Assembly: GCA_021296485.1 (NCBI GenBank)
Contig: JAGWAI010000028.1
Span: 8,142 to 43,467 of the forward strand
From: Acidobacteriota bacterium
GTDB taxonomy: Bacteria; Acidobacteriota; Vicinamibacteria; Vicinamibacterales; UBA8438
Reading direction: 5' to 3'
Length of the DNA stretch: 35,326 bases
Shown: in pieces, positions 2,390 to 33,371 of the stretch
Numbering within the stretch: the first letter of the stretch is position 1
Layout: every line of letters begins with the position of its first letter
Notes under the pieces: model-generated
The model's input: only the letters and a program-made list of their open reading frames with translations
What the model was told of the DNA's origin: nothing
Database searches by the model: none
Position numbers and translations under genes: made by a program

Positions 2390-2416
2390 ATTACACCGCA
2401 AACAGGGAGCACTGCC

Positions 2417-6732: not shown

Positions 6733-6786
6733 TGCCTGCCCCCGCCGTCTCCTGCTTCGCATGTAGTTGACAAGCCGCCCGGTTGC

Positions 6787-10030: not shown

Positions 10031-11938
10031 CTAGCCGGGCGGTTGGGCCGTGATGCGAATCCGGTCCAGCCGCCTGGCCTCCGCCGGCAGTTCCGAGGCG
10101 CCGGGCGGCATGCCGTTCCTCTTCAGCAGATAGCTGACCACGTCGATGTTCTGTTGCGGGCTGACGCTGCCTGGCGCATCCCACGGCATCGCGCGTGACA
10201 CCGTGAGGAACAGGTCGGCCACGGTCGCGGCGTCCCAGCGCTGCTCGAAAGAGACGCCCACCAGGCTCGGGACGACCTCGCTGCCGTCGCCCTGCAACGC
10301 GCCGTCGCCGCTCAGGTCGCGGCGGTGGCACTTGCGGCACCGGCGCCGGTAGACCTGTTCCCCGCGGTCGGCCTGCTCCGCGTTGTAGACGCCTGACCAC
10401 ACCGTCAACGCGGCCGGCTGGTCTGCGGCGGCGGCGGTGCTCCGGGCCGCCAGGTCGTCGAGCGTTACCGGCAGGCCGCGCGCGCCCATCGCCTCCCGCA
10501 GCATCTCGGCGATCTGCGGCGATTCCTTGTAGGTCCCCTGCCGGAAGACGCCCGCCGCGATGTGCAGCGGCGTCCAGCCGGCCTGATTCACCAGGGTGAA
10601 CGTGTCCGCCCCGTGGTCGATAACGAGCTGCACGACCGACGGCGCCAGCCTGTAAACCGCGCCGTGCAACGCCGTCTCGCCGTTGGCGTCGACCGCGTTG
10701 ATGTCACCACCCAGATCGAGAACCACCTGCATGCACTCGAACGCTTCGGCCTCGGTGCCGCCGTCCTCGCCGGGAGATGCAATTCCGACGCCGGCGGCAA
10801 CCATGAGCAGCGTCGTGTCTTCTTCGGTCTTGAGCGCCGGATCGGCTCCCAGCTCCAGCAGCACGCGTACCAGCGGCGCATCGGCCACCTTGGCCGCCAT
10901 GAGCAGCGGCGTGGCGCCAATCCAGCTGTAGCCCTTCCGAAAGCGCGTGTTCGGATCCTCGATCATGCGCGCGTTGACGTCCGCGCCGCGCGCGACCATC
11001 TGCCTGACGAACTCCAGGTCTTCGACGTTGCCGCGGTTGACCGGGCCCGGCGGGTTGTAGCCGTACGGCGGCTTCCGCACCCAGGAGATGGCGTGCAGCG
11101 CCGTGTAGCCGATTTCGGTGTCGTCCGCCACGCCCTGGTTGGGATCGAGCCCCTGGTCGACGAGATACAGGGCGACCTCGTAGTGCGCGTTCGTCGCGGC
11201 CAGGATTACGGCGCCGGTGCCGTCCGGCAGCTCGTCGTGGATGTCGGCGCCGGACTCGAGCAGCGCCCGAACAACTTCGACGTGGCCGGCCCGCGCCGCG
11301 AATAGCAGCGCCGTGAATCCACCGATGGGCGAACGCCGGAACGACCGTGGAACCTCGGTCTCCGTGCGGGCTCCGACGTCCGCGCCGGCCTCGATCAACG
11401 TCCTTACGGCCGCGGCGTGCCCCTCCCCCGCCGCCCACATGAGCGCTGTCTGGCCGCCTCGCAGCGCCGCGTCGACATCCGCACCGTGGTCCAGCAGCAC
11501 GCGTATGGCGTCGACGCTCCCGCTGCGCGCGACCGTCATCAACGGCGTTTCGCCCTCTCCAATCGCCGCGTCGGGTTCCGCGCCGGCGTCCAGCAGCACC
11601 TCGAGCATCGCCGCACCGGCATTCGTGGCGGCCAGCCGCACAGGCGTGATGCCTAACGCGGTGGCGGCGCCCACATCCGCGCCGGCGCGCAGCAGCAGCC
11701 GGGCCGCGTCGGCATCATCGAGGTGGGCCGCCCAGTGCAGCGCCGTCATGCCGCCGGGCTCGGCGCCATTGACGTCGATATCCGGCTGCCGCAGGAGCGC
11801 GCTGACGGCATCGAGATCGGCGTTCCGAACTACATCTACCAGCGGCGGCGATTGCGCTGCCGCGCCGGCGCCGAAAATCACCAGCGCCACGGACAGGAGC
11901 AAAACGGTTCCAGGGTGATGCGAGTTGCGCTCGGTCAT
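10031..11938 (-). CDS. Secreted ankyrin-repeat protein fused to a C-terminal cytochrome c
   Basis: The product has 635 residues from the ATG at 11938; an in-frame ATG at 11962 adds eight residues, and neither has a strong ribosome site. A signal peptide (VLLLSVALVIFGAGAAAQ) is followed by about ten ankyrin repeats (roughly 30-480) with recurrent GxTALHWAA, LLLRAGADV and LLDHGADVDA patterns. The final 110 residues are a class I cytochrome c: CRKCH at 534-538, and a likely methionine ligand in SRAMPWDAPG. The context is a divergent DUF1592-DUF1552 pair, an arrangement repeated in the opposite orientation at 22253-27816. Ankyrin repeats bind other proteins. Pseudomonas AnkB, an ankyrin protein in the cell envelope, supports the catalase KatB, so a helper or electron-transfer role for the neighbouring haem proteins is a reasonable inference. 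Confidence 0.88.
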   Translation of the reverse strand: MTERNSHHPGTVLLLSVALVIFGAGAAAQSPPLVDVVRNADLDAVSALLRQPDIDVNGAEPGGMTALHWAAHLDDADAARLLLRAGADVGAATALGITPVRLAATNAGAAMLEVLLDAGAEPDAAIGEGETPLMTVARSGSVDAIRVLLDHGADVDAALRGGQTALMWAAGEGHAAAVRTLIEAGADVGARTETEVPRSFRRSPIGGFTALLFAARAGHVEVVRALLESGADIHDELPDGTGAVILAATNAHYEVALYLVDQGLDPNQGVADDTEIGYTALHAISWVRKPPYGYNPPGPVNRGNVEDLEFVRQMVARGADVNARMIEDPNTRFRKGYSWIGATPLLMAAKVADAPLVRVLLELGADPALKTEEDTTLLMVAAGVGIASPGEDGGTEAEAFECMQVVLDLGGDINAVDANGETALHGAVYRLAPSVVQLVIDHGADTFTLVNQAGWTPLHIAAGVFRQGTYKESPQIAEMLREAMGARGLPVTLDDLAARSTAAAADQPAALTVWSGVYNAEQADRGEQVYRRRCRKCHRRDLSGDGALQGDGSEVVPSLVGVSFEQRWDAATVADLFLTVSRAMPWDAPGSVSPQQNIDVVSYLLKRNGMPPGASELPAEARRLDRIRITAQPPG

Positions 11939-11961
11939 CTTCGTTGCGGCGCGCTGCCGCA

Positions 11962-11991
11962 TTGCGGCAAACCGCGATTATTGCATATAAT
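11962..11991 (+). promoter_or_regulatory. Probable promoter of the DUF1592-led operon
   Basis: TTGCGG (11962-11967) and a perfect TATAAT (11986-11991) are 18 bases apart, with the operon start 65 bases downstream. The divergent gap is only 118 bases, so the ankyrin-cytochrome promoter on the other strand must overlap this one (AATAAT-like boxes are visible there), which would let a single factor control both directions. Confidence 0.5.
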
Positions 11992-12056
11992 TTCGCATCT
12001 TACGAAGAACTGCGGCGCTGAATCACTGTAGCATCGGCTTCGGGTGGTTTGGGGAG

Positions 12057-14495
12057 ATGCGGACCAAGACCTCTCTGGCGGCGCTCGCCGGCATCCTCTC
12101 GATTGCCGGATATGCACCAGCAGCGGCCGGGCAACAGGCCGCCGCGGGCGACGATCCTGATCGCGGCGCACTGATCAGCCGCTACTGCGTAGGCTGTCAC
12201 AACGAACGGCTCCGGACCGCAGATCTCCTGCTCGACCGTGCCGACATCACCGATATCGGCGCCGACGCCCAGCTCTGGGAAAACGTCGTGCGCAAGCTGC
12301 GCGCCGGCATGATGCCGCCCGCCGGGCGGCCGCGGCCGGATCAAGCGCAGCGAGACGGCCTGGTGGCCTGGCTCGAGTCCGAGCTCGACCAGGCTGCAGT
12401 GCGCCATCCGAACCCGGGCAGGGTCGACGGCCTGCGCCGCCTGAGCCGCACCGAGTACCGCAACGCCGTCCGCGACCTGATTGCGCTCGAAGTCGACGTT
12501 GCCGAACTGCTGCCCGCGGACGACTCGAGCGGCGGGTTCGACAACGCAAGTCTCGGAGGACTCGATCCGGGACGCATGGAAGCGTATCTTCTGGCGGCGC
12601 GAAAGGTGAGCCGCCTGGCGGTCGGTGCAGCCGTAAGACCAACCTCTCATACGTTCGTCGTACCCTCGGATCTCACGCAGAACCGCCACATCGACGGCCT
12701 GCCGTTCGGCACCCGGGGCGGCGCCGTGGTGCCGTTCACGTTCCCCGGCAGCGGCGCATACGACATCGATATCATGCTTGGCCGGGATTTCCTGCAGTTG
12801 GGACTGGTGGGACCGGCCGGTATCTCCGAACCGCACGACCTGGTAGTGACCCTCGACGGTGAGATCGTGCACACGGAGAGCCTTGAGCCCCCAAAGATGC
12901 CTTCCAGGCAGCCGGCGGGTGACGACGCGCAGCCCGACCTCTACGCATCAAACGAGGACGACACGGGCGGCGGACCGGACGTCAGCGTCCGCCTGTCCGT
13001 GCGTGCGGGCAAGCGCGCGCTCGGCGTGGCGTTCGTCAACAAGGGCTACAGGCTGGTGGAGCAACACCAGCAGCCCTTCGAGCGGCCCCACGTTGCCCAG
13101 GGCGAGGACCAGCGGCCCGAGCCGGTGATAGAGACCATCGAGATCACCGGGCCGTTCGAGACGAGCGGGTCACGCGCCGAAACGGCGAGCCGGCGGCGCA
13201 TCTTCAGCTGCCGGCCCGCGAGCCGCCTCGAGGAAACGGACTGCGCCCAGGCCATTCTCATGACGCTGGCGCGGCGGGCGTACCGGCGACCGGTGACCGG
13301 GTCGGACCTGGAGGACCTGCTCGCCTTCTACAGGGAGGGATACGCGGAGGGCCAGTCTGCGCCCGAGGGCGGCTTCGAGGCGGGCATCCACCGGGCGCTC
13401 AGGCGGCTGCTTGCGCATCCGGAATTCCTGCTGCGCATCGAGCGCGATCCCGAGACCGCCACCGGCCCGTATCGCATCAGCGATATCGAGCTGGCGTCGC
13501 GGCTGTCGTTCTTCCTGTGGAGCAGCATCCCCGACGACGAACTGCTCGACGCCGCGAGCCGCGGGATTCTCAGCGAGCCGGAGGTGCTCGAACAGCAGGT
13601 GCGCCGCATGCTCGCCGACACGCGGTCGAGCGCACTCATCGAGAACTTCGCGGCGCAGTGGCTGTACCTGCGTAATCTGCCCGAGACCACCCCCGACGCC
13701 TGGCTGTTTCCAGACTTCGACGACAACCTGCGCCGCTCGATGCGGCGCGAGACCGAATTGTTCTTCGAAAGCATCATCCGTGAGGACCGCAGCGTGATCG
13801 ATCTCCTCGCGGCGGACTATACCTTCGTCGACGAGCGGCTCGCCCGGCACTACGGCATGCCCCACGTACGCGGCAGCCGCTTCCGGCGCGTGGCGTTGGA
13901 CCCCGACAGCGGGCGCGGCGGCCTGCTCGGGCACGCCAGCATTCTCACGGTAACGTCGTACGCGACCCGCACCTCACCGGTGCTGCGCGGCAAGTGGGTC
14001 CTGGAGAACATCCTGGGAACTCCGCCGCCTCCGCCACCCGCGAACGTGCCGCCGCTCGAAGACGCGGGCCGCGGACAGGCGCTTTCGATGCGCGAACGGG
14101 TGGCCCAGCATCGCGCGAATCCCGTGTGCGCCAGCTGCCACGCGCTCATGGATCCAATCGGCCTGTCGCTGGAGAACTTCGACGGGATCGGCCGCTGGAG
14201 GACACGCACCGAGGGCTTTGCCCCGCTTGACGTATCGGGTAATCTGCCCGACGGGTCGGCCTACGATGGTGTGGCCGGCCTCAAGACGACGCTGTTGAAC
14301 CGACCGGAGCTGTTCGTGACCACAGTCAGCGAGAAACTGCTTGCGTACGCCCTCGGCCGCGCCGTTGAATACTACGATGCGCCCGCGGTGCGCCGGACCG
14401 TGCGCGACGCCGAACAGCACGACTATCGGTTCTCGTCGCTCATTCTGGGGATCGTTCGCAGCACGCCGTTTCAGATGAGAGGCCAGCAGTCATGA
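12057..14495 (+). CDS. DUF1592-type dihaem cytochrome protein (PSD-domain protein), copy A
   Basis: The product is a secreted 812-residue protein with the full planctomycete/acidobacterial domain string: signal peptide (about 1-25), cytochrome c-like PSD1 domain with CVGCH at 44-48 and GMMPP, DUF1587 (LSRTEYRNAVRDL), DUF1595 (LARRAYRRPVT), DUF1592 (ASRLSFFLWSSIPDDELLD), DUF1588 (SYATRTSPVLRGKWVLEN and the polyproline stretch), a second haem site CASCH at 691-695 inside NPVCASCHALMDPIGL, and DUF1585 at the C terminus. The reaction is unknown for the whole family; two covalent haems imply an electron-transfer or redox role outside the cytoplasm. Its last four bases (ATGA) overlap the start of the DUF1552 gene, so translation is coupled. 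Confidence 0.93.
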   Translation: MRTKTSLAALAGILSIAGYAPAAAGQQAAAGDDPDRGALISRYCVGCHNERLRTADLLLDRADITDIGADAQLWENVVRKLRAGMMPPAGRPRPDQAQRDGLVAWLESELDQAAVRHPNPGRVDGLRRLSRTEYRNAVRDLIALEVDVAELLPADDSSGGFDNASLGGLDPGRMEAYLLAARKVSRLAVGAAVRPTSHTFVVPSDLTQNRHIDGLPFGTRGGAVVPFTFPGSGAYDIDIMLGRDFLQLGLVGPAGISEPHDLVVTLDGEIVHTESLEPPKMPSRQPAGDDAQPDLYASNEDDTGGGPDVSVRLSVRAGKRALGVAFVNKGYRLVEQHQQPFERPHVAQGEDQRPEPVIETIEITGPFETSGSRAETASRRRIFSCRPASRLEETDCAQAILMTLARRAYRRPVTGSDLEDLLAFYREGYAEGQSAPEGGFEAGIHRALRRLLAHPEFLLRIERDPETATGPYRISDIELASRLSFFLWSSIPDDELLDAASRGILSEPEVLEQQVRRMLADTRSSALIENFAAQWLYLRNLPETTPDAWLFPDFDDNLRRSMRRETELFFESIIREDRSVIDLLAADYTFVDERLARHYGMPHVRGSRFRRVALDPDSGRGGLLGHASILTVTSYATRTSPVLRGKWVLENILGTPPPPPPANVPPLEDAGRGQALSMRERVAQHRANPVCASCHALMDPIGLSLENFDGIGRWRTRTEGFAPLDVSGNLPDGSAYDGVAGLKTTLLNRPELFVTTVSEKLLAYALGRAVEYYDAPAVRRTVRDAEQHDYRFSSLILGIVRSTPFQMRGQQS

Positions 14496-15862
14496 TCATT
14501 CGCAAGATAGCGTTGCCGCGGCGGACGTTCCTGCGCGGAGCGGGCGCCGCATTGGCGTTGCCGCTGCTCGACGCGATGGTGCCGGCGCTCACCGCCGCTG
14601 CCAGGACCGCGGCCAACCCGGTTCGCCGGTTGGGCTTCGTTTACTTTCCGCACGGTTCGGTTACGTGGAGCAAGGAACAGAACCTGTGGACGCCGGCCCG
14701 CGAGGGCAAGATCGAGGAGCTGCCGCCCATATTGAGTTCACTCGGCCCATATCGCGATCAGGTGACCGTGGTCACGAACCTGGAGATGAAGAATGCCCAG
14801 GGCAACGGGCGGGACGGCAACGGCGAGCACACGCGCGCGAACGCGACGTTCCTGAGCGCGGCGCGCCCCAAGATGACCGTGCGCTCGGACGTGCGGCTGG
14901 CCACGACGGTCGATCAGATTGCGGCCCGCGAGCTGTGCAAGGACACGCGGTTGCCGTCGCTGGAACTGGCCCTGGATTCGAACTTCCTCGTGGGCAACTG
15001 CGACGACGGCTACAACTGCGTATATGTGAATACGATTGCGTGGTCATCGCCCACCACGCCGCTGCCGGCGGAGACGAATCCGCGGCGCGTGTTCGAGCGC
15101 CTGTTCGGTGAGGGCGGCAGCGAGGCGGAAATGCAGGCCGAAGCGCGAGCTGACCGCAGCATCCTCGATGCAATCACCGAGGATCTGGCGCAACTGCGCG
15201 CAACGCTCGGTCCCGAAGACCGCGGCCGCATGAGCGAGTACCTCGACACCGTGCGCGAGGTCGAGCGGCGGATCCGGTTGGCGGAGCGGCAAACGGACCA
15301 GCCCGGCCTGACGCTGCCCGAGCAACCAGTCGGCGTACCGGACAGCTATGACGAACATGCAAAGCTGATGCTCGACTTGCAGGTGCTGGCCTATCAGGCC
15401 GACATCACGCGGGTCTTCACGATGATGGTCGGCCGGGAACAAAACGCACGCCCCTTCCCCTGGATCGGTGTCAACGACGGACACCACGCCATCTCGCATC
15501 ACCAGGACAATCCGGAGAAAATAGCCGCGCTCTCCAAGATCAACGCCTATCAGGTTGAGCTGTTCGCCTATCTGCTGCAGAAACTGCACGCGACGCCGGA
15601 CGGTCCGGGCAACCTCCTTGACCATTCGATGCTGCTCTACGGCAGCGGCATATCCAACGGAAACCTCCACGACCACAAGAACCTGCCGATTCTGGTGGCG
15701 GGCGGCGGGGCGGGACGGCTCAAGGGCGGCCGCCACATAAAGTACGCAGAGCAGACGCCGATGGCGAATCTGCTCGTCGGGCTGCTGGACCGGGCGGGCG
15801 TCCACGTGGACCGCTTCGGCGACAGCACGGGTCGGATCGACCTCGAACCCCTTTCACTCTAG
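14492..15862 (+). CDS. DUF1552 protein with Tat signal, copy A
   Basis: The product has 456 residues and starts with a twin-arginine signal (PRRTFLRGAGAALALPLLDA), so it is exported folded. The body carries the DUF1552 landmarks: FVYFPHGSVTW, the pattern YVNTIAWSSPTTPLP, a His-rich segment GVNDGHHAISHHQDNPEK, and LLYGSGISNGNLHDHKNLPI near the C terminus. The domain is related in outline to DUF1501 and alkaline-phosphatase/sulfatase-like proteins, and the Asp/His clusters could bind metal, but no activity has been assigned as far as I know. It is encoded directly after a DUF1592 cytochrome with a 4-base overlap, the usual pairing, so the two probably act together. Confidence 0.93.
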   Translation: MIIRKIALPRRTFLRGAGAALALPLLDAMVPALTAAARTAANPVRRLGFVYFPHGSVTWSKEQNLWTPAREGKIEELPPILSSLGPYRDQVTVVTNLEMKNAQGNGRDGNGEHTRANATFLSAARPKMTVRSDVRLATTVDQIAARELCKDTRLPSLELALDSNFLVGNCDDGYNCVYVNTIAWSSPTTPLPAETNPRRVFERLFGEGGSEAEMQAEARADRSILDAITEDLAQLRATLGPEDRGRMSEYLDTVREVERRIRLAERQTDQPGLTLPEQPVGVPDSYDEHAKLMLDLQVLAYQADITRVFTMMVGREQNARPFPWIGVNDGHHAISHHQDNPEKIAALSKINAYQVELFAYLLQKLHATPDGPGNLLDHSMLLYGSGISNGNLHDHKNLPILVAGGGAGRLKGGRHIKYAEQTPMANLLVGLLDRAGVHVDRFGDSTGRIDLEPLSL

Positions 15863-15927
15863 GCGGCGCAACTGGCCGGGCGGGGCCGCTGGCTCCGCCA
15901 GCATTTTCCACGTGCCCGGAGGTGGCG

Positions 15928-16824
15928 ATGCGCAGACACCTTGTGGACCGGTTCCGCACCCTCCTGCCGGCTGCGGCACTGCTGCTGCCGGCGGCGGCGG
16001 CGGCGCAGACCGAAGGCGCCGGGTTCGAAGCGTTTCACGGTACGTGGACGGCCCAGTCGGGACGAGGCACGCCTGCGGTCACCATGACGTGGGAAGACCG
16101 AGGCGGCGGGATCGTCTACGTCTCCACCACAGATTCCTCGCCCGACGCCGGGCCGCTCGAAGTATTCGCGTTCCGCCTGGACGGCAAGGACTACCCGTAT
16201 GCGTTCCGCGGCGGGGACGTCACTTCGACCATCGCCTCTGCGGCCATCGATCGGAATGCGATTGACGTGACCTACAAGATGGGCGGCACGCGCACCGCGC
16301 GCAGCCGCTGGTCCGTCTCCGGCAACGGGTCGACACTGACGGTCGGACGGCCGGACGGAACGACGTGGTCGCTGGCTCGGCAGAACGCGTCGCCAGCCCA
16401 GGCGCCGCGCGAGTTCAGCAGCGGGTACAAGCGCTACATCGGCGTGTGGGAAGCGGTGCGGAATGAACGCGGCTCCAATACCGGGACCGTCGTCTGGGAG
16501 GACCGCGGCGAGAATTTCGTCATTGCCACCGTGCGCGACCGGGACGGCCGGGTAACAATGCGCTACACCCTGAAATACGACGGCAAGCACTACCCGTGCG
16601 TCAGCAACCGCGGCGGCGTCAACACGATTACCTCCGTGTTCGTGGACGACTACAAGACGGACTGGTCGATCTACCTGGCCGACGGGAGCCTGAGCGGATC
16701 GGGCAGCCGCATCGTGGATCCCGACGGCCAGCGCATCGTCGTACCCGGCAGCGGGGGCGGCGGTAACGACCTGATCTGGCACCGGGCTGGCGACGCACCG
16801 ACCGACGGTATCCTCGCGCCATGA
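15928..16824 (+). CDS. Secreted protein with two tandem lipocalin-like repeats, unknown function
   Basis: The product has 298 residues. ATG 15928 is chosen because GGAGG (15918-15922) lies 5 bases upstream; the in-frame GTG at 15922 overlaps that site. A signal peptide (LLPAAALLLPAAAAAQ) is followed by two copies of a module of about 120 residues. Both modules show a G-x-W opening (FHGTWTAQ and YIGVWEAV), then TMTWEDRGGG versus TVVWEDRGEN, LDGKDYPYAFRGGDV versus YDGKHYPCVSNRGGV, and a closing W (TWSLAR versus LIWHR). The pattern looks like small beta-barrels of lipocalin type, which would suggest binding of a small ligand; that is inference. The final ATGA overlaps the next gene, so translation is coupled. 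I do not recognise a named family. Confidence 0.82.
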   Translation: MRRHLVDRFRTLLPAAALLLPAAAAAQTEGAGFEAFHGTWTAQSGRGTPAVTMTWEDRGGGIVYVSTTDSSPDAGPLEVFAFRLDGKDYPYAFRGGDVTSTIASAAIDRNAIDVTYKMGGTRTARSRWSVSGNGSTLTVGRPDGTTWSLARQNASPAQAPREFSSGYKRYIGVWEAVRNERGSNTGTVVWEDRGENFVIATVRDRDGRVTMRYTLKYDGKHYPCVSNRGGVNTITSVFVDDYKTDWSIYLADGSLSGSGSRIVDPDGQRIVVPGSGGGGNDLIWHRAGDAPTDGILAP

Positions 16825-18554
16825 GGCCGGCCCGCCTGCTGCTCTGCCTCGCCTCCGCAATCCTGCTCGCTCACGCGGGGCCGCTCCTGGCGCAGGAGGC
16901 GCAATCGGTCGCCCTCAGCGGAGTGGTCCACTCACTGGAAGAAGGCTGGATGGAAGGCGTCGTGGTAACGGCGCGGCGCGAGGGGGCGCCCTTCACGGTA
17001 TCGGTGGTGAGCGACGACCAGGGGCGCTACCGCTTTCCGCGAACCCACGTGGAACCGGGCGCATACGACTTGTCGATTCGGGCCGCGGGTTACGACCTGG
17101 GCTCGCCCGGCAGGGTGGCGGTGACGGCGACTGCCCCGGTGACGCTGGATCTCGAGCTCCTGGAGACCGCCGACCTCGCCTCGCAGCTCTCCTCGCGCGA
17201 GTGGCTCATGAGCATGCCGGGCACGATTGCACAGAAGGACCAGCTGGCCTACCAGGTGGTCAGTTGCGCCTACTGCCACACGTACGAGCGCATCGTGAAG
17301 TCGCGGCACACGGCCGAGGCGTTCGTCCCGGTGATCACCCGCATGCAGACCTATTTCGGCGACGGCACGGCGGTGAGCCGCAGCGGGCGGGGCCGGGGCC
17401 AGCGCAACGAACACCCGGAACTGGCCGCCGAAAACCCGAATTGGGGCAGCGCCCCGAAGACCGAGCTCGCCGCCTACCTCGCGACGGTGAATCTGAGCGC
17501 GGGCGGGAGGGACTGGCCCTACGAACTGAAGACGCTGCCGCGCCCGACCGGCCGGGCGACCCGGGTCATCATCACGCAATACGACCTGCCCCGGCCGGGC
17601 ACCGTCCCGCACGACATGACGATCGATTCGACCGGCACCCCGTGGTTCCCGGACCAAAGCCGGATGTTCATCGGAAAGCTCGATCCGCGGACCGGAGTAT
17701 CGACGGAGTACCCGTTGCCGCCGCTGCCGACCGGCCGCGTGGGCGGCGTCGCGGACATGCAGGTCGACCTGGACGACAACGTGTGGTTCACGATGACGGT
17801 GCCCGAGCGCGCCTCGCACTTCGGGTTCCCGACGAAGTTCGACCCGGACACGGAGGAGATAACGGTCGTGCCAATCCCCTCGGACGGGTCCGGCCGGTTC
17901 GGCGACGGGTCCGCGCAGTTCCTCGATCTGGCGCCCGATGGCCGGTTGTGGATGAACTCCGGGGTCGACTTCTATCGGGTCGATCCCGGGACCATGACGG
18001 CCGACCTGCACCTCAACGCCACGCCCCCCGACCTGCCGGGACAGTCGAGTCAGGGATTGCGGCACTTCGTCTACCAGATGGTCGTCGATTCGCAGGGCGT
18101 GCCGTACGGCACCGACTTTCCCGTGTCAACCATCGTCCGCGCGGACCCCGAGACCGGTGAGGTGCGCTACTGGCCCACGCTGACGCCCAACGCGGTGCCG
18201 CGGCGCGGGCGCATGGACGCGCGGGACCGCTTCTGGTTCGCCGAGTACTTCGGCGATGCGATCGGGATGTTCGATACCCGCACCGAGGAGATGCACGAAT
18301 ACCCGATGCCCCGCAAGTGGACGACGCCGTACACGGCCTCGGCGCCGGACAAGGACGGCTACGTCTATTCGCCGAGCAACATGAGCGAGCGGCTGATGCG
18401 TCTCGATCCGGCGAGCGGCGAGGTGATCGAGTACCAGATGCCAACCGACTTCGACACCAAGAAGATCCTTCACGATCCGTCGACCGACCGCACCACGCTC
18501 TGGATGGCCAACACGCGGAACGCGAGGCTGGTACGGGTCGAGCCGCTCGATTAG
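16821..18554 (+). CDS. Carboxypeptidase-regulatory-like / cytochrome / Vgb-like beta-propeller protein, copy 1
   Basis: This secreted protein has 577 residues. Domains in order are a signal peptide (1-24), an Ig-like carboxypeptidase-regulatory domain (about 28-115, LSGVVHSLEEGWMEGVVVTA), a cytochrome-like helical segment with CAYCH at 149-153, and a propeller of virginiamycin B lyase (streptogramin lyase) type from about residue 240 to the end, with repeated W-F and G-x-I-x-x-x-D-x-x-T blade motifs (WFPDQSRMFIGKLDPRTG, WFAEYFGDAIGMFDTRT). Although the propeller resembles Vgb, the haem site and the Ig-like domain argue against a simple antibiotic lyase; a carbohydrate- or lactone-acting redox protein is possible. 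The start overlaps the previous gene by four bases. A paralogue follows 21 bases later. Confidence 0.87.
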   Translation: MRPARLLLCLASAILLAHAGPLLAQEAQSVALSGVVHSLEEGWMEGVVVTARREGAPFTVSVVSDDQGRYRFPRTHVEPGAYDLSIRAAGYDLGSPGRVAVTATAPVTLDLELLETADLASQLSSREWLMSMPGTIAQKDQLAYQVVSCAYCHTYERIVKSRHTAEAFVPVITRMQTYFGDGTAVSRSGRGRGQRNEHPELAAENPNWGSAPKTELAAYLATVNLSAGGRDWPYELKTLPRPTGRATRVIITQYDLPRPGTVPHDMTIDSTGTPWFPDQSRMFIGKLDPRTGVSTEYPLPPLPTGRVGGVADMQVDLDDNVWFTMTVPERASHFGFPTKFDPDTEEITVVPIPSDGSGRFGDGSAQFLDLAPDGRLWMNSGVDFYRVDPGTMTADLHLNATPPDLPGQSSQGLRHFVYQMVVDSQGVPYGTDFPVSTIVRADPETGEVRYWPTLTPNAVPRRGRMDARDRFWFAEYFGDAIGMFDTRTEEMHEYPMPRKWTTPYTASAPDKDGYVYSPSNMSERLMRLDPASGEVIEYQMPTDFDTKKILHDPSTDRTTLWMANTRNARLVRVEPLD

Positions 18555-18575
18555 TCCGCGTTGAGGACCTTGCCA

Positions 18576-19358
18576 ATGTCCGAAGCGGCAACTCGGCCAC
18601 TCGGTACCGTTGCCTGTGCGTGCGTTGCGCTCGGATTGCTGGTCTGGCCCACAAGCGCCACGCCACCGGGTGTGACTGCACGCGAGGCGCGCGCCGCGCA
18701 GACTGACGCGCGTCCGGCAGGCGTGCTCGTCGGCACCGTGCAGGAAACCGCCGGCCAGCCACTCGGCGGCGTCCAGGTTTCCGCGAAAGCCGCGGGCACG
18801 ACGATTACGACTACCGTGTTCACGGACGAGCAGGGCCGCTACTTCTTTCCGGCGATGCGGGGCGGACCGTACCGCGTGTGGGCGCAGGCGGTCGGGTTTG
18901 CGCGGGCGCCCGCCGAAGTGACGATAGTGGCCGGCGCGCGGATACATCAGGCTTTCACGCTGCACCGCCTGGGCACGCTCGACGAGATCGCGCCGCAACT
19001 GTCCGAGTCGGAATGGATCGCGGCGCTGCCGGAGGATACGCGGGAGAAGCGCCGGATGAAGGAGATCCTGCGCGTCAACTGCGGTATGTGCCACTCGATC
19101 GCCTCGGTGCTGCAACACAGGTTCGACGAGCGCGGCTGGCTGAACATGATTCAACCGGCCGAGCCGGCGCCCCACGGTCGAATATCACCGGGAGGAATTG
19201 GCCGCGTACCTGGCCGCGGTACGCGGCCCGGAATCGCCGCCCCTGGACGTCGCGCTGCATCCGCGCCCGACGGGCGAAGCGGCGCGGGTGGTGTTCACGC
19301 AGTACGACATTCCAATGAAGAACGCGCCGGACGGACTGCTTGTCCTGGACGGCAATGA
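18576..19358 (+). CDS. Vgb-like propeller/cytochrome protein, copy 2, N-terminal part (frameshifted)
   Basis: This is the front part of a paralogue of the preceding gene. The ATG at 18576 has GAGG 9 bases upstream. It encodes a signal peptide, a carboxypeptidase-regulatory domain (about 49-130, VLVGTVQETAGQPLGGVQVS) and the haem site CGMCH at 169-173. Similarity to copy 1 stops after LNMIQPAEPAP (base 19173); the remaining 60 or so codons to 19358 read as arginine/glycine/alanine-rich frameshift peptide. The missing sequence continues in the +1 frame in the next entry. Removing one C from the CCCC run at 19170-19173 would join the two parts into one protein of about 743 residues. Confidence 0.8.
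   Translation: MSEAATRPLGTVACACVALGLLVWPTSATPPGVTAREARAAQTDARPAGVLVGTVQETAGQPLGGVQVSAKAAGTTITTTVFTDEQGRYFFPAMRGGPYRVWAQAVGFARAPAEVTIVAGARIHQAFTLHRLGTLDEIAPQLSESEWIAALPEDTREKRRMKEILRVNCGMCHSIASVLQHRFDERGWLNMIQPAEPAPHGRISPGGIGRVPGRGTRPGIAAPGRRAASAPDGRSGAGGVHAVRHSNEERAGRTACPGRQ
19170..19173 (+). other. Frameshift site (CCCC run) splitting the second Vgb-like gene
   Basis: Upstream codons read N-M-I-Q-P-A-E-P-A-P in one frame. Skipping one base in this C run continues as P-T-V-E-Y-H-R-E-E-L-A-A-Y-L-A in the next frame, and E-L-A-A-Y-L-A matches the TELAAYLATV of copy 1. A single-base insertion, by mutation or by assembly error, is the simplest explanation. Confidence 0.75.
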
Positions 19359-20805
19359 CTGGTCCGCGGGCCGGGCCACGCATCACGGCTACCTGAATCA
19401 CGACGTCGTGATCGACCTGGACGGCTACGCCTGGCTGACGGCCTTCCCCCCGCCCGACCCGGCGCTCTACAAGCTCGACCCCGCCACCGGCCAGGTCTCG
19501 TGGTACGCGATACCGAACGAAGACGGCCAGGGCATGCGGTGGACCCACGGCATCGTGCCCCACCGGAACGGCAAGATCTACTTCACGGCGCTCACGGCGC
19601 TGGGCGAGGTGGATCCGGAAACGCATGCATTCGAGTTCTTTCACCCGCCGCCGAACACCGGCGGCGGGGTTGCGCAGGACCTGGACACCGACCCCCAGGG
19701 AGGCGTCTGGGCCACGACCCGCGGCGGCGCCTACCGCTTCGATCCGGCGACGCGGGAGTGGGGCTACTTCCCCAGCCCGACAACACCCGACGGCGGCACC
19801 TACGGCGTGGCGGCGGACATCGACGGCAACGGCTGGTGGGCGCAGTTCGCCGGGGATCGCGTAGGGAAAGGCGATCCCCGGACCGGCCGCACCTACGAGG
19901 TCGCCCTGCGACCGCCCTGGATGGCGGACACCGAACAGACCGCGACTCCGCAGGACCGGGAGTTCTACGAGTCGATCGGCGCGTTGACCTGGGGTGGGAT
20001 CAACATGGTCCCCGGAGCCCAGGCGCCCCGCCGGATGGGAACGGACAAGCACAGCGATACGCTGTGGGTCGCGAACTTCCAGGGGGAGAATCTCGCGCGC
20101 ATCAACATCCGCACACTCGACGCCACGTACTACCGGCTCCCGATTCGCAGCCACCCGTACCGGGTGACGGCGGACGAGTACCACAACGCATGGACGAGCA
20201 TCATGGGCGACGACTGGCTGCTCAGGCTGCATCCGGATACGGCGGAATGGACCATGTTCCAGCTACCCGTGCTCAACTGCGACAGCCGCTACCTTTGGAT
20301 TGATCACGGCCGGGACGAGCTGTGGGTGCCGTGCGCCCGGACCAGCCAGGCGATCCGCATGCAGTTCCGAACGGCCGGGCAACTGCAGGCGCTCGCGAAT
20401 GGCGCCCTGCCGGCGGCGCCTGTCGTACCCGCCCCCGCACCGGAGCCCCTGTCAACGCAGCCGGTCGCACAGCCGCCGACCGGTGAGGTGGCCGTGACGC
20501 GCGGTGTGTTCGACATGCGCACGGTCGCCCTGCCCGGCCCGCTGAACGAGCGCGAGTTGGACGGCCGGCGACTGTTCTACGGGCGCTGCTCCATGTGCCA
20601 CGTACGACCGAACGGGCCGTGGGTGGACCGGACGACGGTCCAGGCCCTGGGAGAGTCGCGCGTGCTCGAGTTGATCGCGGCGGGGTCCGAGCGCATGCCG
20701 GGCCAGCAGTACTCCCTGACGCCCGTCCGGATGCAGAATGTCGTCGACTATCTCAAGACGGTTACGCCGGACCAGAAGCCCGCCACCCTCCCCGGCTGGT
20801 GGTGA
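19198..20805 (+). CDS. Vgb-like propeller/cytochrome protein, copy 2, C-terminal part with terminal cytochrome c
   Basis: This is the continuation of the gene that begins at 18576, in the +1 frame; the coding sense really resumes at about 19171. A TTG at 19198 could act as a start, but its purine-rich stretch (GGGAGGAA) abuts it, so independent translation is doubtful. It encodes the Vgb-like propeller (about 400 residues; AWLTAFPPPDPALYKLDPATG, GNGWWAQFAGDRVGKGDPRTG, LWVANFQGENLARI), then a proline/alanine linker and an extra class I cytochrome c with CSMCH at bases 20587-20601 and a likely methionine ligand in SERMPGQQ. Copy 1 lacks this last domain. The TGA stop overlaps a GTG (20802) that opens the next frame, suggesting coupling to the amidohydrolase. 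Confidence 0.8.
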   Translation: MAAYLAAVRGPESPPLDVALHPRPTGEAARVVFTQYDIPMKNAPDGLLVLDGNDWSAGRATHHGYLNHDVVIDLDGYAWLTAFPPPDPALYKLDPATGQVSWYAIPNEDGQGMRWTHGIVPHRNGKIYFTALTALGEVDPETHAFEFFHPPPNTGGGVAQDLDTDPQGGVWATTRGGAYRFDPATREWGYFPSPTTPDGGTYGVAADIDGNGWWAQFAGDRVGKGDPRTGRTYEVALRPPWMADTEQTATPQDREFYESIGALTWGGINMVPGAQAPRRMGTDKHSDTLWVANFQGENLARINIRTLDATYYRLPIRSHPYRVTADEYHNAWTSIMGDDWLLRLHPDTAEWTMFQLPVLNCDSRYLWIDHGRDELWVPCARTSQAIRMQFRTAGQLQALANGALPAAPVVPAPAPEPLSTQPVAQPPTGEVAVTRGVFDMRTVALPGPLNERELDGRRLFYGRCSMCHVRPNGPWVDRTTVQALGESRVLELIAAGSERMPGQQYSLTPVRMQNVVDYLKTVTPDQKPATLPGWW

Positions 20806-20822
20806 CCGCGGTCCGCGGAGTC

Positions 20823-22256
20823 ATGCTGACGCGATTCCGATTCTTCCTGCATGCCGTACTCGCGCCGGCCGCGCTGTGTCTCGCCGCGTCCGCGTGCGGA
20901 CCGGCGCCGCCCGCCACGCAGACCGGCACTGCCGCACCGGACGCCGCCGAGACGAACACCGTGGTGTTCGAACAGGTCACTGTCGTTCCCATGGACCGCG
21001 AGCGGGTGCTGCCGAACCGGATGGTGGTCGTCCACAACGGACTGATCGCGGAGATCGACGCCGCCGGCATGCCGGCGCCGGCGGGCGCCGTCCGCGTCGA
21101 CGGGCGCGGCAAGTTTCTCATGCCGGCGCTCGCCGAGATGCACGCGCATCTGCTTCCTGAGGACGTTGCCCCCTATGTCGGCGGCCGCTTTGCGACGCCG
21201 GAGCAGGCCATCGAGCGCGTGCTGCTCATGTTCGTACTGAACGGCGTCGGCACCGTCCGGAACGCGCACGGCCACGCACCGCACATCGCCCTGCGGGAGC
21301 GCGTGGCCGGCGGGGAACTGACTGGACCGACGATTATCACGTCCGGACCGTCGTTCAGAAACGAACACGTGGCGTCGACTGCGGCGGCCGAGCGATTCGT
21401 TGCGGATCACGTTGCGCTCGGGTACGACTTCATCAAGGTCTATCCCACCATCGCCGGCGGCATCGACGACGACGCCGATGTGTGGGAGGCAATGACACGC
21501 GCCGCGAACGAGGCCGGCGTGCCGTTCGGCGGGCATGTGCCTACCGGGCTGGGGCTGCGCCGTGTGCTCGAGTCCGGGATGCGGACCATCGACCACATCG
21601 ACGGGTACCTGGAGGCCGCCGCGCGTCCGGGTGCGCCCGAACCGCAGATCTTCGGGACCAATCTCGCGGGGCACGTGGACGAGTCGCGGTTCGCGGCGCT
21701 GGCCGGGGAGACGCGGGCCGCGGGCGCGTGGATCGTGCCGACGCAGAGCCTGCTGGAGGTCCAGCGGGGTCCGGACGATCCGGATGTGATGGCAACCTGG
21801 CCCGGTATGGAATACGTCTCGCCCGAGGTGCTGCAACGGTGGATCGACGCGAAGCGGCGCACCATGGCCGCGCAGCCGCTCGAGACGCGCCAGGAGTATC
21901 TCGCCCTGCGGCGGCGGCTCCTGAAAGCCCTGTACGACGGCGGAGTGCGGTTCGTGCAGGGCTCCGACTCGCCCCAGACGTGGACCCCGCCCGGTTTTGC
22001 GGCGCACAGGGAGCTTGCGGCCCTGGTGGCGTCGGGGCTGACGCCGTTTCAGGCGCTGGAAACCGGCACCCGCAACGTGGCGGTGTTCCTGAACGCGGAG
22101 GACCGCACCGGCACCGTCGAAGTGGGCAAGCGCGCGGACCTGCTGCTGGTCGACGCCAATCCGCTGGAGGACGTGGCCAACGCGCATGAGATCACCGGCG
22201 TCATGCTCAACGGCCGCTGGCTGCTCCGCGAAGAAATCGAAGCCCTACTTCGTTAG
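20823..22256 (+). CDS. Amidohydrolase family lipoprotein
   Basis: The product has 477 residues from the ATG at 20823; a GTG at 20802 in the same frame overlaps the previous stop (GTGA) and is an alternative start. The N terminus is a lipoprotein signal with lipobox LAASAC (Cys25). The TIM-barrel hydrolase shows the metal set of the imidazolonepropionase/prolidase-like subfamily: H-x-H in EMHAHL (107 and 109), a Lys in DFIKVYP, His in GGHVP, His in IDHIDGY and the catalytic Asp in QGSDSPQ. The C-terminal small beta domain (GTVEVGKRADLLLVDANPLED) is complete. Such enzymes cleave amide, lactam or peptide-like bonds; the substrate is not predictable. It is the last gene of the plus-strand run, and its TAG overlaps the TAA of the convergent gene. 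Confidence 0.9.
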   Translation: MLTRFRFFLHAVLAPAALCLAASACGPAPPATQTGTAAPDAAETNTVVFEQVTVVPMDRERVLPNRMVVVHNGLIAEIDAAGMPAPAGAVRVDGRGKFLMPALAEMHAHLLPEDVAPYVGGRFATPEQAIERVLLMFVLNGVGTVRNAHGHAPHIALRERVAGGELTGPTIITSGPSFRNEHVASTAAAERFVADHVALGYDFIKVYPTIAGGIDDDADVWEAMTRAANEAGVPFGGHVPTGLGLRRVLESGMRTIDHIDGYLEAAARPGAPEPQIFGTNLAGHVDESRFAALAGETRAAGAWIVPTQSLLEVQRGPDDPDVMATWPGMEYVSPEVLQRWIDAKRRTMAAQPLETRQEYLALRRRLLKALYDGGVRFVQGSDSPQTWTPPGFAAHRELAALVASGLTPFQALETGTRNVAVFLNAEDRTGTVEVGKRADLLLVDANPLEDVANAHEITGVMLNGRWLLREEIEALLR

Positions 22257-23599
22257 ACGTCCAACACGCCGGCGATTCTACCCGTGCTGTCGCCGAGCTT
22301 CTCGAGCGGGAACCCGAGCTTCTCAAGAATGGTCAGGTGCAGGTTCGTAAGCGGCTGCTTCGGGTAGCGGACGTAGCGCCCGCCGCGGATCCCGGTCCCC
22401 TTGCCCCCGACCAGCATGATCGGCAAATCGTCGTGAAAATGGGTATTGCTGTCGCTGATGCCGGTTCCGTACAGGAACAGCGTGTGGTCGAGCAGCGTGC
22501 CGTCGCCCTCCGGGGTCTCCGCGAGCTTCGCGACCAGGTGGGCGAACTGCTGCATGTGGTACTCGTTGATCTTGCTCAATCGCTCGAGCTTCGCCGGCTC
22601 ATCCTGGTGGTGGGACACCGGATGGTGCGAATCGGAAACGCCAATCTCGGGATAGGGCCGGTTGCTGACCTCCCTGCCCATCATGAACGTGCAGATACGG
22701 GTCATGTCGGTCTGATACGCCAGCGCCAGCAGGTCCAGCAGCAGTCTGGCATGCTCCGCGTAGTCGCTAGGAATACCGACCGGCTGTTCGACCACGGGCA
22801 GCGCTTCGAGGCCCTGACGCTGGGCCAGTTGCAGGCGCCGCTCGATGTCCCGAATCGCGTCGAAATACTCTGCAAGCTTGACCTGGTCCTCCGGGCCAAC
22901 GGCCTTCCGCAGGCCTTCCGCATCACCACTGACGAAATCGAGGATGCTGCGGTCGATGCTCATGCGCGCCCGCCGCGCGTCCGCATCGGTGCTGCCGGCG
23001 GTGCCGAAGAGCCGCTCGAACACGGCCCGGGGGTCGTTTTCTACCGGCAGCGGCGTGGTGGGCGTGCGCCAGGCGATGGTGTTGGTGTACGCGCAACTCA
23101 GGCCGCCGTCGCACGATCCCAGCAATCCAGGGTCTTCCATGCCCAGCTCGAGCGATGCGAGCTGGGTGTCCCGCGCCAGTTCGGCGGCGGCAATCTGGTC
23201 CATCGACATCGCAGCGCGCACCTGCGCGCTGCGATCCTCGAACGGCGTGCCGGTGAGGAACGTGCCGGAGGACTTGATGTGATCACCGCCGCGCAGGAGC
23301 TTGGCCGATTCGGTCGCCAGCCCGCCGCACAGGACCGCCCTGTCCTTGAACGCTTCCAGCGGGCGCAGGATCGGCGGCGCCGTCGTGAGGGGTCCCTCGG
23401 CAAGGTCGCGCGGATACCAGTACGGCATGGACATGCCGTTGGGCACGTAAAACACGCCCAGCCGGCGTACCGGCGCCGCGGCGGTCCTGGCCATGGCCGT
23501 GAGCGCCGGCACCATGCCGTCGAGCAACGGCAGGGCCAGCGTGGCGCCGATCCCGCGCAAAACGGTCCGGCGAGGTATGTGTTTCCGGGTGACAATCAT
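22253..23599 (-). CDS. DUF1552 protein with Tat signal, copy B
   Basis: The product has 448 residues from the ATG at 23599, with GAGGGAGACGAG just upstream; the frame stays open to 23749, but that part overlaps the end of the preceding gene and shows no signal. A twin-arginine signal (PRRTVLRGIGATLALPLLD) is followed by the DUF1552 landmarks VFYVPNGMSMPYWYP, YTNTIAWRTPTTPLP, GVSDSHHPVSHHQDEPAK and LYGTGISDSNTHFHDDLPI. It is clearly paralogous to the gene at 14492 and keeps the same position behind a DUF1592 cytochrome, with a 38-base gap here instead of an overlap. Confidence 0.93.
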   Translation of the reverse strand: MIVTRKHIPRRTVLRGIGATLALPLLDGMVPALTAMARTAAAPVRRLGVFYVPNGMSMPYWYPRDLAEGPLTTAPPILRPLEAFKDRAVLCGGLATESAKLLRGGDHIKSSGTFLTGTPFEDRSAQVRAAMSMDQIAAAELARDTQLASLELGMEDPGLLGSCDGGLSCAYTNTIAWRTPTTPLPVENDPRAVFERLFGTAGSTDADARRARMSIDRSILDFVSGDAEGLRKAVGPEDQVKLAEYFDAIRDIERRLQLAQRQGLEALPVVEQPVGIPSDYAEHARLLLDLLALAYQTDMTRICTFMMGREVSNRPYPEIGVSDSHHPVSHHQDEPAKLERLSKINEYHMQQFAHLVAKLAETPEGDGTLLDHTLFLYGTGISDSNTHFHDDLPIMLVGGKGTGIRGGRYVRYPKQPLTNLHLTILEKLGFPLEKLGDSTGRIAGVLDV

Positions 23600-27830: not shown

Positions 27831-29822
27831 TCAGGACGGCAACCTGAAGGTCAACAGTTCGGCCGCGTGGCCCGCGCCGCCGATGGCCAGCGTAATGTAC
27901 TGAATGCCGTCCATCGAATACGTCATCGGCAAGCCCGTCACGGCCGCGGGTAGCTGCACCGCACCGACCTCCATCCCCGTTGCCTTGTCGTAGGCGCGCA
28001 ACATGGCGGCGCGACCGCCGTCCGGCGTCGTGAACGTGGAATCATCACCGGCTATCAGCAGCGTCTTCGTGACCAGCGTACCGCCGCCGCTGCTGCCCGT
28101 GCGGGGAATGTCGAGGCCTTGCAGCGCCGGGTGGTTTCTGACAACGTCCGGCGTCTCGCCGTGCGGGACCTGCCAGACGATGTCGCCGCGATTCAGATCG
28201 ATGGCCGTAACGCGTCCGTAGGGGGGCTTGGCCAGCGGCAGGCCGTCAACCAGCAGTCCGGTGACCGGAATCGGCGTGGCTCCGTCCTCGCCGCGTCCCC
28301 GGGCGGCGGCCGCCGTCCCGACGACGTAGTTCATGTCCGAGGTAGTCGGATTCGGCTCGACCAGCGCCAGCGACATCATGGACGTCCGCGAGGCCAGGTA
28401 CACGATGCCGGTCTCCGGATCCAGCGACCCGCCGGGCCAGTTCGAGCCGCCGGCGATGTTCGGCAGGGTCAACGTGCCGAGCGGGCCTTCAACGCGGCTC
28501 ACCACGGGCGGCGTGAAGATCGGTCCCAGCCTGTATCTCGAGGCGATTTCCACCGCCGTCGCGCGCAGCTCGGGCGTGAAGTCAACCAGGTCGTCGATCG
28601 TGACCCCCTGGCGGTCGTAGGCGGGCGGCCTTGTCGGAAACGGCTGCGTGGGCGCATACCATTCGCCCGGTACATCGCCGGCCTCGACGGGGCGCTCCTC
28701 GATGGGCCACACCGGCTCGCCCGTCACCCTGTCGAACACATACAGCCAGCTCTGCTTCGTGGGCTGGGCAACCACCTTGACGGACCTGCCGTCCACCGTG
28801 ACGTCGGCCAGGATCGGTCCACACGGAAGGTCGTAGTCCCAGATGTCGTGGTGGACGAACTGGTAGTGCCAGACCCGCTCCCCGGTTTCAAGATCCACGG
28901 CCACCAACGAGTCGCTGAACAGGTTGTCGCCGGGCCGGTGTCCGCCGTAGTGATCGCCGGTCGGCGTCTCGATCGGGAGATACACCAGCCCCGACTCGAG
29001 ATCGACCGTTATCTGCGCCCAGACGCCCGTGTTTCCCGTATAGACGCGCGAGTCGTTCAACCAGGTGTCGGCGCCGAACTCACCGGCGGCCGGAATCGTG
29101 TGGAAGATCCAGAGCCGCTCGCCAGTCAGGACGTCGTACGCGCGCACGTGCCCCTTGGGAGCGGACCGGCTTCGCGGCACCTGGCCGGGCGCATGCGACG
29201 CGCCGACGATGATGGTGTTGCCGGCCACGACCGGCGGGGTTCTCAGCGACACGTCGCCGGTCACGGGGTCGAGCGGCTGGTCCATCTCCAGCCTCAGATC
29301 GACGATGCCGTCATTGCCGAACGACGGAATGCGCACGCCCGTCTGCGCGTCCAGCCCCACGAGTCGATAACCGGGCGTGATATAGAAGATGCGCTCCGCG
29401 TTACCGTCCGTCCAGTACGCGACGCCGCGCCCGGAGCCGCCCCGGGTCGCCAGCTCGCCGCGTCTCCCCTCGTCCATCCGGTGGATCCACTGCAGCTCGC
29501 CGGTAGCTGCGTCGAGCGCCACGACCGCGCGCCGGCTTCCGGCCGTCGTGTACATGACCCCGTTGGCCACGAGTGGTGTCGTCTGCCAGCGATAGTCGAG
29601 CCGCGGACCCAGGTTATCCGTCCCGAACCGCCATGCCAGCTCGAGGGTGTCGAAGTTTGCCGCGTTGATATGGTCGAGCGGCGAATAACGCGTGTTGGCG
29701 AGATCCCCGCCGCGCGTACGCCACTCCCGGTCCGGCGTTCCCGACTGTCCTTCGGCGCGCACCGCGGACATCAGGATCACGAGAACCAGGCCCACGCAGC
29801 GCCGATGACCAGATCGCGTCAT
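27831..29822 (-). CDS. PQQ-dependent dehydrogenase, glucose-dehydrogenase-like, secreted (second copy)
   Basis: The product has 663 residues. A short signal peptide (LVLVILMSAVRAEGQ) leads straight into the propeller (EWRTRGGDLANTRYSPLDHI). The active-site region reads VHHDIWDYDLP with the Gcd-type catalytic Asp at about residue 329, and 27 residues later the Lys in QPTKQSWLYVFDR. The family segments GEWYAPTQPFPTRPPAYD and VDFTPELR are present, and the C-terminal closing blade (MDGIQYITLAIGGAGHAAEL) is complete. There is no fused haem and no membrane domain. It is divergent from a GVWD-family gene, and it is convergent with the ankyrin gene with 14 bases between the stops. Family activity is oxidation of a sugar or alcohol in the periplasm; the actual substrate is unknown. 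Confidence 0.88.
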   Translation of the reverse strand: MTRSGHRRCVGLVLVILMSAVRAEGQSGTPDREWRTRGGDLANTRYSPLDHINAANFDTLELAWRFGTDNLGPRLDYRWQTTPLVANGVMYTTAGSRRAVVALDAATGELQWIHRMDEGRRGELATRGGSGRGVAYWTDGNAERIFYITPGYRLVGLDAQTGVRIPSFGNDGIVDLRLEMDQPLDPVTGDVSLRTPPVVAGNTIIVGASHAPGQVPRSRSAPKGHVRAYDVLTGERLWIFHTIPAAGEFGADTWLNDSRVYTGNTGVWAQITVDLESGLVYLPIETPTGDHYGGHRPGDNLFSDSLVAVDLETGERVWHYQFVHHDIWDYDLPCGPILADVTVDGRSVKVVAQPTKQSWLYVFDRVTGEPVWPIEERPVEAGDVPGEWYAPTQPFPTRPPAYDRQGVTIDDLVDFTPELRATAVEIASRYRLGPIFTPPVVSRVEGPLGTLTLPNIAGGSNWPGGSLDPETGIVYLASRTSMMSLALVEPNPTTSDMNYVVGTAAAARGRGEDGATPIPVTGLLVDGLPLAKPPYGRVTAIDLNRGDIVWQVPHGETPDVVRNHPALQGLDIPRTGSSGGGTLVTKTLLIAGDDSTFTTPDGGRAAMLRAYDKATGMEVGAVQLPAAVTGLPMTYSMDGIQYITLAIGGAGHAAELLTFRLPS

Positions 29823-33358: not shown

Positions 33359-33371
33359 CGGCGGCTACGGC
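33352..33371. terminator. Hairpin between convergent genes, containing both stop codons
   Basis: GCCGTAGC (33352-33359) and GCTACGGC (33364-33371) form a perfect 8-bp stem with loop GGCG. The TAG of the DUF3604 gene lies in the left arm and the TAG of the minus-strand quinoprotein lies in the right arm. No T-run follows on either side, so it is at best a weak, two-way terminator or an RNA 3'-end stabiliser. Confidence 0.45.

Follow-up and report, generated by a model that had tools for sequence, protein, structure and literature searches.

The joining of a cytochrome to a beta-propeller is familiar from several enzymes. Quinohemoprotein amine dehydrogenase combines a cytochrome, a beta-sandwich and a propeller, and other propeller-cytochrome enzymes include cytochrome cd1, hydrazine synthase alpha, and thiocyanate dehydrogenase with its cytochrome. 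A propeller can also be an enzyme itself, as is reported for virginiamycin B lyase (Vgb, or streptogramin B lyase) and CylK (PMC8916777). The planctomycete-type cytochrome proteins (PSCyt/PSD, DUF1592) and the DUF1552 proteins are reported to have no known function (PMC5615132). No description of a haem-linked Vgb-like propeller was found in the open part of PMC.

Two tandem genes that encode such a protein type lie in the stretch of Acidobacteriota DNA analysed here (35,326 nucleotides of contig JAGWAI010000028.1, positions 8142-43467, hereafter the window), which comes from a genome of 2.38 Mb that is 88% complete. The parts of the encoded proteins are ordinary; their combination and spread are unusual. 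On balance, we consider it probable that the two genes encode exported haem c proteins of one uncharacterised family that serve in periplasmic electron transfer and carry a non-lyase propeller of the Vgb fold. The genes belong to a run in the order DUF1592, DUF1552, unknown family, gene 1, gene 2 and amidohydrolase, which are transcribed in one direction and separated by small gaps or joined by 4-bp overlaps. The gene order is identical in a locus from the same genus (L028, JAJEEU010000071.1). The features of the run, in window coordinates, are as follows.

12057..14495, + strand: DUF1592-type protein with planctomycete-type cytochrome c domains (PSCyt1, PSD2-5, PSCyt3; Pfam), at the head of the co-oriented run
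14492..15862, + strand: DUF1552 (HXXSHH) protein (PF07586, E 1.5e-91)
15922..16824, + strand: secreted protein of unknown family, sharing 4 bp with gene 1 and in the same place in L028
16821..18554, + strand: gene 1, 577 aa, with CarboxypepD_reg, a mono-haem domain and a Vgb-like seven-bladed propeller
16821..16895, + strand: gene 1, signal peptide-like N-terminus, aa 1-25 (by eye, a hydrophobic run ending LLAQ)
16914..17159, + strand: gene 1, CarboxypepD_reg, aa 32-113 (PF13620)
17178..17522, + strand: gene 1, aa 120-234, the haem domain, with kinship to that of quinohemoprotein amine dehydrogenase
17265..17279, + strand: gene 1, haem attachment motif CAYCH, aa 149-153, invariant in 43/43
17343..17345, + strand: gene 1, Met175, invariant in 43/43 and aligned with a Met of 1jju, the likely sixth haem ligand
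17556..18551, + strand: gene 1, propeller, aa 246-577, with conserved H264/D265, Y418, R461/R462, Y504 and K547
18561..20805, + strand: gene 2, in two frames overall, with the layout of gene 1 plus a C-terminal cytochrome c
18561..19151, + strand: gene 2 before the frameshift, with a signal-like start, CarboxypepD_reg (about 18726-18962) and CGMCH (19080-19094)
19140..19175, + strand: gene 2, site of a 17-bp deletion relative to L028, where the frame is lost and a conserved Met codon is gone
19198..20805, + strand: gene 2 after the frameshift, with the propeller (about 19279-20370) and the C-terminal cytochrome c
20560..20754, + strand: gene 2, C-terminal cytochrome c, Cytochrome_CBB3-like, with CSMCH (20587-20601) and MPG (20695)
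20823..22256, + strand: amidohydrolase (PF01979, E 2.6e-17), closing the co-oriented run, start set at an internal Met

The DUF1592-type gene shares 4 bp with the DUF1552 gene. The protein encoded at 15922..16824 had no Pfam match at E 0.1, and a promoter and terminator scan of positions 11900-22400 gave no signals above those of shuffled sequences. That the two genes stand in a tight, co-oriented run with another cytochrome-bearing protein was counted in favour of electron transfer.

A sequence-only reading of this DNA had placed two tandem paralogues here, each with a carboxypeptidase-regulatory domain, a CXXCH site and a Vgb-like propeller, and had given the second a C-terminal cytochrome c. 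The Pfam matches and the located CXXCH motifs bear out both the placement and the list of parts. In gene 1, CarboxypepD_reg (PF13620) was matched with E 1.1e-10 (42.2 bits, cut-off 32.3), and Vgb_lyase (PF24684) with E 1e-15 (57.8 bits, over the curated cut-off of 50). In gene 2, CarboxypepD_reg was matched with E 4.2e-15, the propeller gave a PF24684 score of 35.5 bits, below the 50-bit cut-off (E 6.4e-9), and Cytochrome_CBB3 scored 22.6 bits in the window copy, below the cut-off of 27 (E 1.3e-4), and 34.4 bits in the L028 copy, above it (E 2.8e-8).

The same reading had treated gene 2 as one protein, which does not hold for the window, where the gene consists of two ORFs in different frames, one at 18561-19358 (the Ig-like and first haem domains) and the other at 19198-20805 (the propeller and cytochrome). 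The orthologue in L028 is a single open frame of 748 aa, and a global DNA alignment with it has a single internal gap, a loss of 17 bp from the window at about 19150, inside the first haem domain. The break is possibly a real lesion and possibly an assembly fault. We give about even chances that gene 2 is a recent pseudogene in the source genome and that only gene 1 and a third copy of the family (contig C79) act there. The deletion takes away a conserved Met codon together with the frame, and the genus has an intact gene 2, as would be expected of a recent pseudogene. Set against this are dN/dS values relative to L028 (Nei-Gojobori) of 0.12 for gene 1 and of 0.40 before and 0.17 after the break in gene 2; the last value implies that constraint persisted until recently, so that the decay, if real, is recent. 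A fault of assembly or a mixture of strains is a further potential source of the frameshift.

Relatives of the two genes were assembled from 89 ORF matches representing 57 distinct ORFs, from which 14 duplicates or fragments were removed by hand to leave 43 rows. In a survey of the class with a profile of the haem domain at E<=1e-10, 45 of 193 genomes had matches, most of which lie in frames of about 550-800 aa. A profile of gene 2 found 14 of 297 genomes in a sample of the phylum at E<=1e-30, and a search with gene 1 among near relatives found 17 of 60 genomes, including the source genome, at 1e-20. The largest number of haem-domain matches in one genome of the class survey was at least 16 (G440), and the copy numbers per genome in the class survey and phylum sample are all lower bounds.

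Are the CXXCH segments haem domains, as the sequence-only reading supposed? The residues C149, C152 and H153 and the methionine M175 are each present in 43 of 43 rows, conservation that is somewhat favoured by the way in which the rows were found (whole-protein similarity to seeds with the haem motif); the motif is spelled CXXCH in 42 of the 43 and CXXXCH in L079. A profile built on 36 of the 43 segments, excluding near-copies and L079, matched the alpha subunits of two quinohemoprotein amine dehydrogenase structures best among PDB entries (1jju, 1.2e-6; 1jmx, 1.3e-6), with the next entry at 0.0053. The match is a sum over the two haem sites of that enzyme, each weak by itself (i-Evalues 0.013 and 6.5); the first of them has its Met aligned with that of the family. 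When the 36 segments were compared with Pfam, PF09098 and PF13442 were each matched by 14 at E<=1, with a best E of 9.3e-4 for PF09098; for gene 2 of L028, the PF09098 score was below the cut-off. Cytochrome c assembly proteins (PF01578) are encoded in all three genomes of the genus, and a signal peptide was recognised by eye. The invariant haem motif and Met, the kinship with quinohemoprotein amine dehydrogenase and the presence of assembly proteins together make it very probable that real haem domains are encoded at the CXXCH segments, and the earlier supposition stands. The haem would be attached covalently in the periplasm and ligated by the Met, and electrons would flow through it.

Structure prediction of the CXXCH segment, which the sequence-only reading had proposed as a check, did not resolve it: AlphaFold models of gene 1 and of the L028 gene 2, made with five alignment rows, gave this part low confidence (blocks of pLDDT about 29-47 for gene 1). 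The gamma subunit of quinohemoprotein amine dehydrogenase, which carries the CTQ cofactor, was considered as a partner and dropped, since a search for it (PF08992) gave no match over the cut-off in any of nine genomes. The absence of the gamma subunit from these genomes argues that the family is not quinohemoprotein amine dehydrogenase as known.

Fold searches effectively tested the propeller alone, the models of the haem segment being too poor. The best match of the gene 1 propeller was Vgb, with a Z of 32.5 and an rmsd of 2.1 over 292 of 295 residues, compared with 27-28 for unrelated propellers; the two are in register from the first blade to the last, and the propeller is seven-bladed. Vgb also came first for the model of gene 2 from L028 (Z 30.9; others 28.4 and below). 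A global profile alignment to 2qc5 places Vgb H270 at K547 and H228 at Y504. Of the 42 rows with a residue at position 547, 40 have Lys or Arg; the remaining two, L079 and L056, have His and have lost H264. Of the metal-site residues of Vgb, Glu268 aligns with D545, a position that most rows fill with E, N or D, and Glu284 was placed at T565 by hand, beyond the printed alignment. In no row do the equivalents of Glu268, His270 and Glu284 occur together. In Vgb, H270 is catalytic, and H270A is named as an inactive mutant in the title of PDB 2z2p. With Lys547 or Arg at the catalytic His270 position, simple Vgb lyase activity is unlikely for the family. The alignment with Vgb proposed earlier thus found that the catalytic His is not kept, and the proposal of a chemistry other than that of a simple Vgb lyase, with a redox-linked role preferred, has gained from it.

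What, then, might the propeller do? The conserved positions of the 43-row alignment are Y418 (43 rows), Y504 (42), H264 (41), R461 (41), R462 (40) and D265 (39). One possibility, and the one that fits the reading we favour, is that the conserved His-Asp/Tyr/Arg-Arg/Tyr/Lys-Arg face of the propeller serves to bind a substrate or a partner dehydrogenase and that electrons would pass to the small haem, from there to a second cytochrome and on to the respiratory chain. The propeller shows no redox cofactor, which was counted against electron transfer.

The sequence-only reading had the propeller specially wired to haem, and here a control set of Vgb-like propellers gathered regardless of haem, together with plasmid matches, gave a different picture. 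Among the 34 rows of the haem group, R461 and R462 are both Arg in 34, Y504 is kept in 33 and H264 is His in 32. In the 20 rows without a match to the haem profile, Y418, R461 and Y504 are each kept in 17 and H264 in 11. Nine of these 20 do have a CXXCH that the profile missed; among the remaining 11, eight keep the Tyr, Arg-Arg and Tyr, and the three that differ are weak, distant rows. A propeller face specific to haem-linked proteins was therefore rejected, and the idea of special wiring is weakened. The presence of the same positions in relatives without CXXCH indicates a pocket that is independent of the haem domain; the haem has been added to a propeller family of wider occurrence, and the pocket is no proof of redox chemistry. 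The propellers without CXXCH include stand-alone proteins annotated as lyases on plasmids of Methylocystis and Paraburkholderia. A protein from a Microvirga plasmid has a haem domain, a propeller and a short N-terminus.

These stand-alone proteins bring in an alternative in which the propeller acts as an enzyme (lyase, isomerase or hydrolase) with a chemistry of its own, while the haem domain serves for sensing or as a structural addition. That the conserved positions recur in the stand-alone "lyase" propellers of the Methylocystis and Paraburkholderia plasmids is what such an enzyme would lead one to expect, and Vgb and CylK set a precedent for enzymatic propellers (PMC8916777). The alternative sits poorly with the Lys or Arg that replaces the catalytic His of Vgb in 40 of 42 rows, and a second cytochrome that recurs as a neighbour or a fusion suits electron transfer better than sensing. 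We regard this alternative as quite improbable.

Among the 24 rows of the gene 2 clade, the second cytochrome is encoded by an adjacent upstream gene in 16, fused to the N-terminus in five, fused to the C-terminus in one and uncalled in two. The N-terminal fusions include the third family copy of the source genome, on contig C79, and the C-terminal fusion is L028, the orthologue of gene 2 in the window. Across both clades, 17 of 17 adjacent genes lie upstream on the same strand, and on the tree five changes suffice to account for the arrangements. Around family genes (20 stretches, 228,616 bases), a profile of the cytochrome found eight ORFs, at least one of them inside a family gene, and it found none in 19 control stretches from the same genomes (235,619 bases). 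A partner that is now a neighbour and now fused at either end is a classical sign of joint function, here electron transfer, which points to the gene 2 clade and its second cytochrome, in the same chain or encoded next door, as an electron-transfer unit.

In the gene 1 clade (19 rows), the second cytochrome was absent in 17, adjacent in one and uncalled in one, absence being valid within the flank covered, often 1.5 kb; the uncalled rows of the two clades are L059, L065 and L020. That rows of the gene 1 type mostly lack a second cytochrome was counted against electron transfer.

A bolder extension of electron transfer is that the family is a new class of periplasmic oxidoreductase. The Vgb-type pocket, rebuilt with His-Asp, Tyr, Arg-Arg and Tyr, would bind an organic substrate, and the covalent haem alongside would receive electrons directly, with no quinone, flavin or copper involved, and pass them to the modular second cytochrome. 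Some Vicinamibacteria-type genomes would then have multiplied the family, to 16 or more copies at the most extreme, and so widened the range of substrates. We offer this as speculation, and improbable as it stands.

The neighbourhoods of the family genes raise another alternative, namely that the propeller serves for docking and has no catalytic role, and that the proteins carry electrons for neighbouring periplasmic enzymes, such as the DUF1552/DUF1592 proteins, PQQ-type dehydrogenases or the amidohydrolase. The gene order of the window, co-oriented, tightly spaced and kept in the same genus, is in line with such a role. DUF1552 genes lie near the family gene in the window, L028, L030, L037, L038, L042 and L044, and in the last five of these DUF1592 is near as well. 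However, the partner is not constant, as one genome (G028) has many family genes and no DUF1552. Moreover, a search of 12 genomes from this bacterial family gave 18-47 copies of DUF1552 per genome, so many that its presence nearby is weak evidence, and the strictly conserved face of the propeller resembles a binding or active site. A role confined to docking is possible but doubtful. An obligatory system with DUF1552 was rejected on account of G028.

Pfam matches around 20 further family genes included Cytochrome_CBB3 in seven and outer-membrane barrels (PF25183) in five of the 126 neighbour proteins, compared with at most two of 129 control proteins for each. Genes in these neighbourhoods were called by a simple method, and the controls were thinned from 154 to 129 while all 126 neighbours were used; the enrichment is at most suggestive, and its modest size was counted against electron transfer. 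NCBIfam names of the neighbours were mixed, and no common pathway was found among them.

Family matching is liable to label these proteins as virginiamycin B lyases, and tallies of antibiotic resistance genes in environmental genomes could be inflated as a result. If the proteins do transfer electrons, they would form a part of periplasmic electron transfer that has gone unstudied, present in 45 of the 193 class genomes of a largely uncultured group of bacteria, and the modular second cytochrome would make the function directly testable.

Several known systems can be compared with the family. The planctomycete-type cytochrome proteins (PSCyt/PSD, DUF1592) and their DUF1552 neighbours are likewise secreted and cytochrome-bearing and share the gene run of the window, yet their domains are unrelated to those of genes 1 and 2 and the co-occurrence is not obligatory. 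The stand-alone Vgb-like "lyase" proteins of Proteobacteria (e.g., WP_124740286.1) have the same conserved propeller positions as the family, but no haem motif, and no CarboxypepD_reg was seen in them by eye. Vgb itself (2z2n, 2z2o, 2z2p and 2qc5) has the fold in common with the family and a weak kinship in sequence; the family differs in having Lys or Arg for His270, Tyr for His228 and a different conserved face, and it adds a signal-like start and the Ig-like and haem domains. The idea of a cytochrome with a propeller is common to the family and to cytochrome cd1, hydrazine synthase alpha and thiocyanate dehydrogenase with its cytochrome. Quinohemoprotein amine dehydrogenase (1jju, 1jmx) has, in its alpha subunit, the closest counterpart of the small CXXCH/Met haem domain. 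Compared with that enzyme, whose gamma (CTQ) subunit was not found above the cut-off in any of nine genomes, the family has a propeller that is Vgb-like, a haem domain with one haem instead of two, and everything in one chain.

A third copy of the family that joins a haem domain to a Vgb-like propeller is encoded elsewhere in the window's genome (contig C79, locus L030, 833-3160, minus strand), and it carries its second cytochrome at the N-terminus rather than the C-terminus. The neighbours of this copy are DUF1552 and DUF1592 genes. In the 12 genomes searched from the window's bacterial family, DUF1552 is present in 18-47 copies per genome.

Family members were also seen in other settings. 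A relative of gene 1 with ~55% identity lies on a contig labelled Acidimicrobiia (L029, 5775-7481), which may reflect misbinning or transfer. In the member at L079, CXXXCH replaces CXXCH and the propeller lacks the conserved residue His264. A plasmid of the alphaproteobacterium Microvirga ossetica encodes a haem domain and propeller (L149, 2222-3526) with a short N-terminus, in which no CarboxypepD_reg domain was seen by eye.

Several other genes of the window deserve mention:

94-2247, PQQ-type dehydrogenase propeller
2195-3469, secreted-looking protein without meaningful Pfam match
4705-6762, PQQ-type dehydrogenase propeller
10031-11962, minus strand, protein with ankyrin repeats and, at its C-terminus, a cytochrome c domain
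15922-16824, secreted-looking protein that matches no Pfam family, overlapping gene 1 by 4 bp
27831-29822, PQQ-type dehydrogenase propeller
29919-30893, secreted-looking protein without meaningful Pfam match
33365-35212, PQQ-type dehydrogenase propeller

The window's 35 kb holds four PQQ-type dehydrogenase propellers. A search for pqqE at E 1e-5 gave no match in the window's genome, which is incomplete, and one over the cut-off in G002, another genome of the genus. By eye, the two halves of the protein that overlaps gene 1 appear alike. Relatives of the ankyrin-repeat protein are found close to family genes in further genomes, and relatives of the other two secreted-looking proteins, present in several copies on other contigs, recur adjoining family genes.
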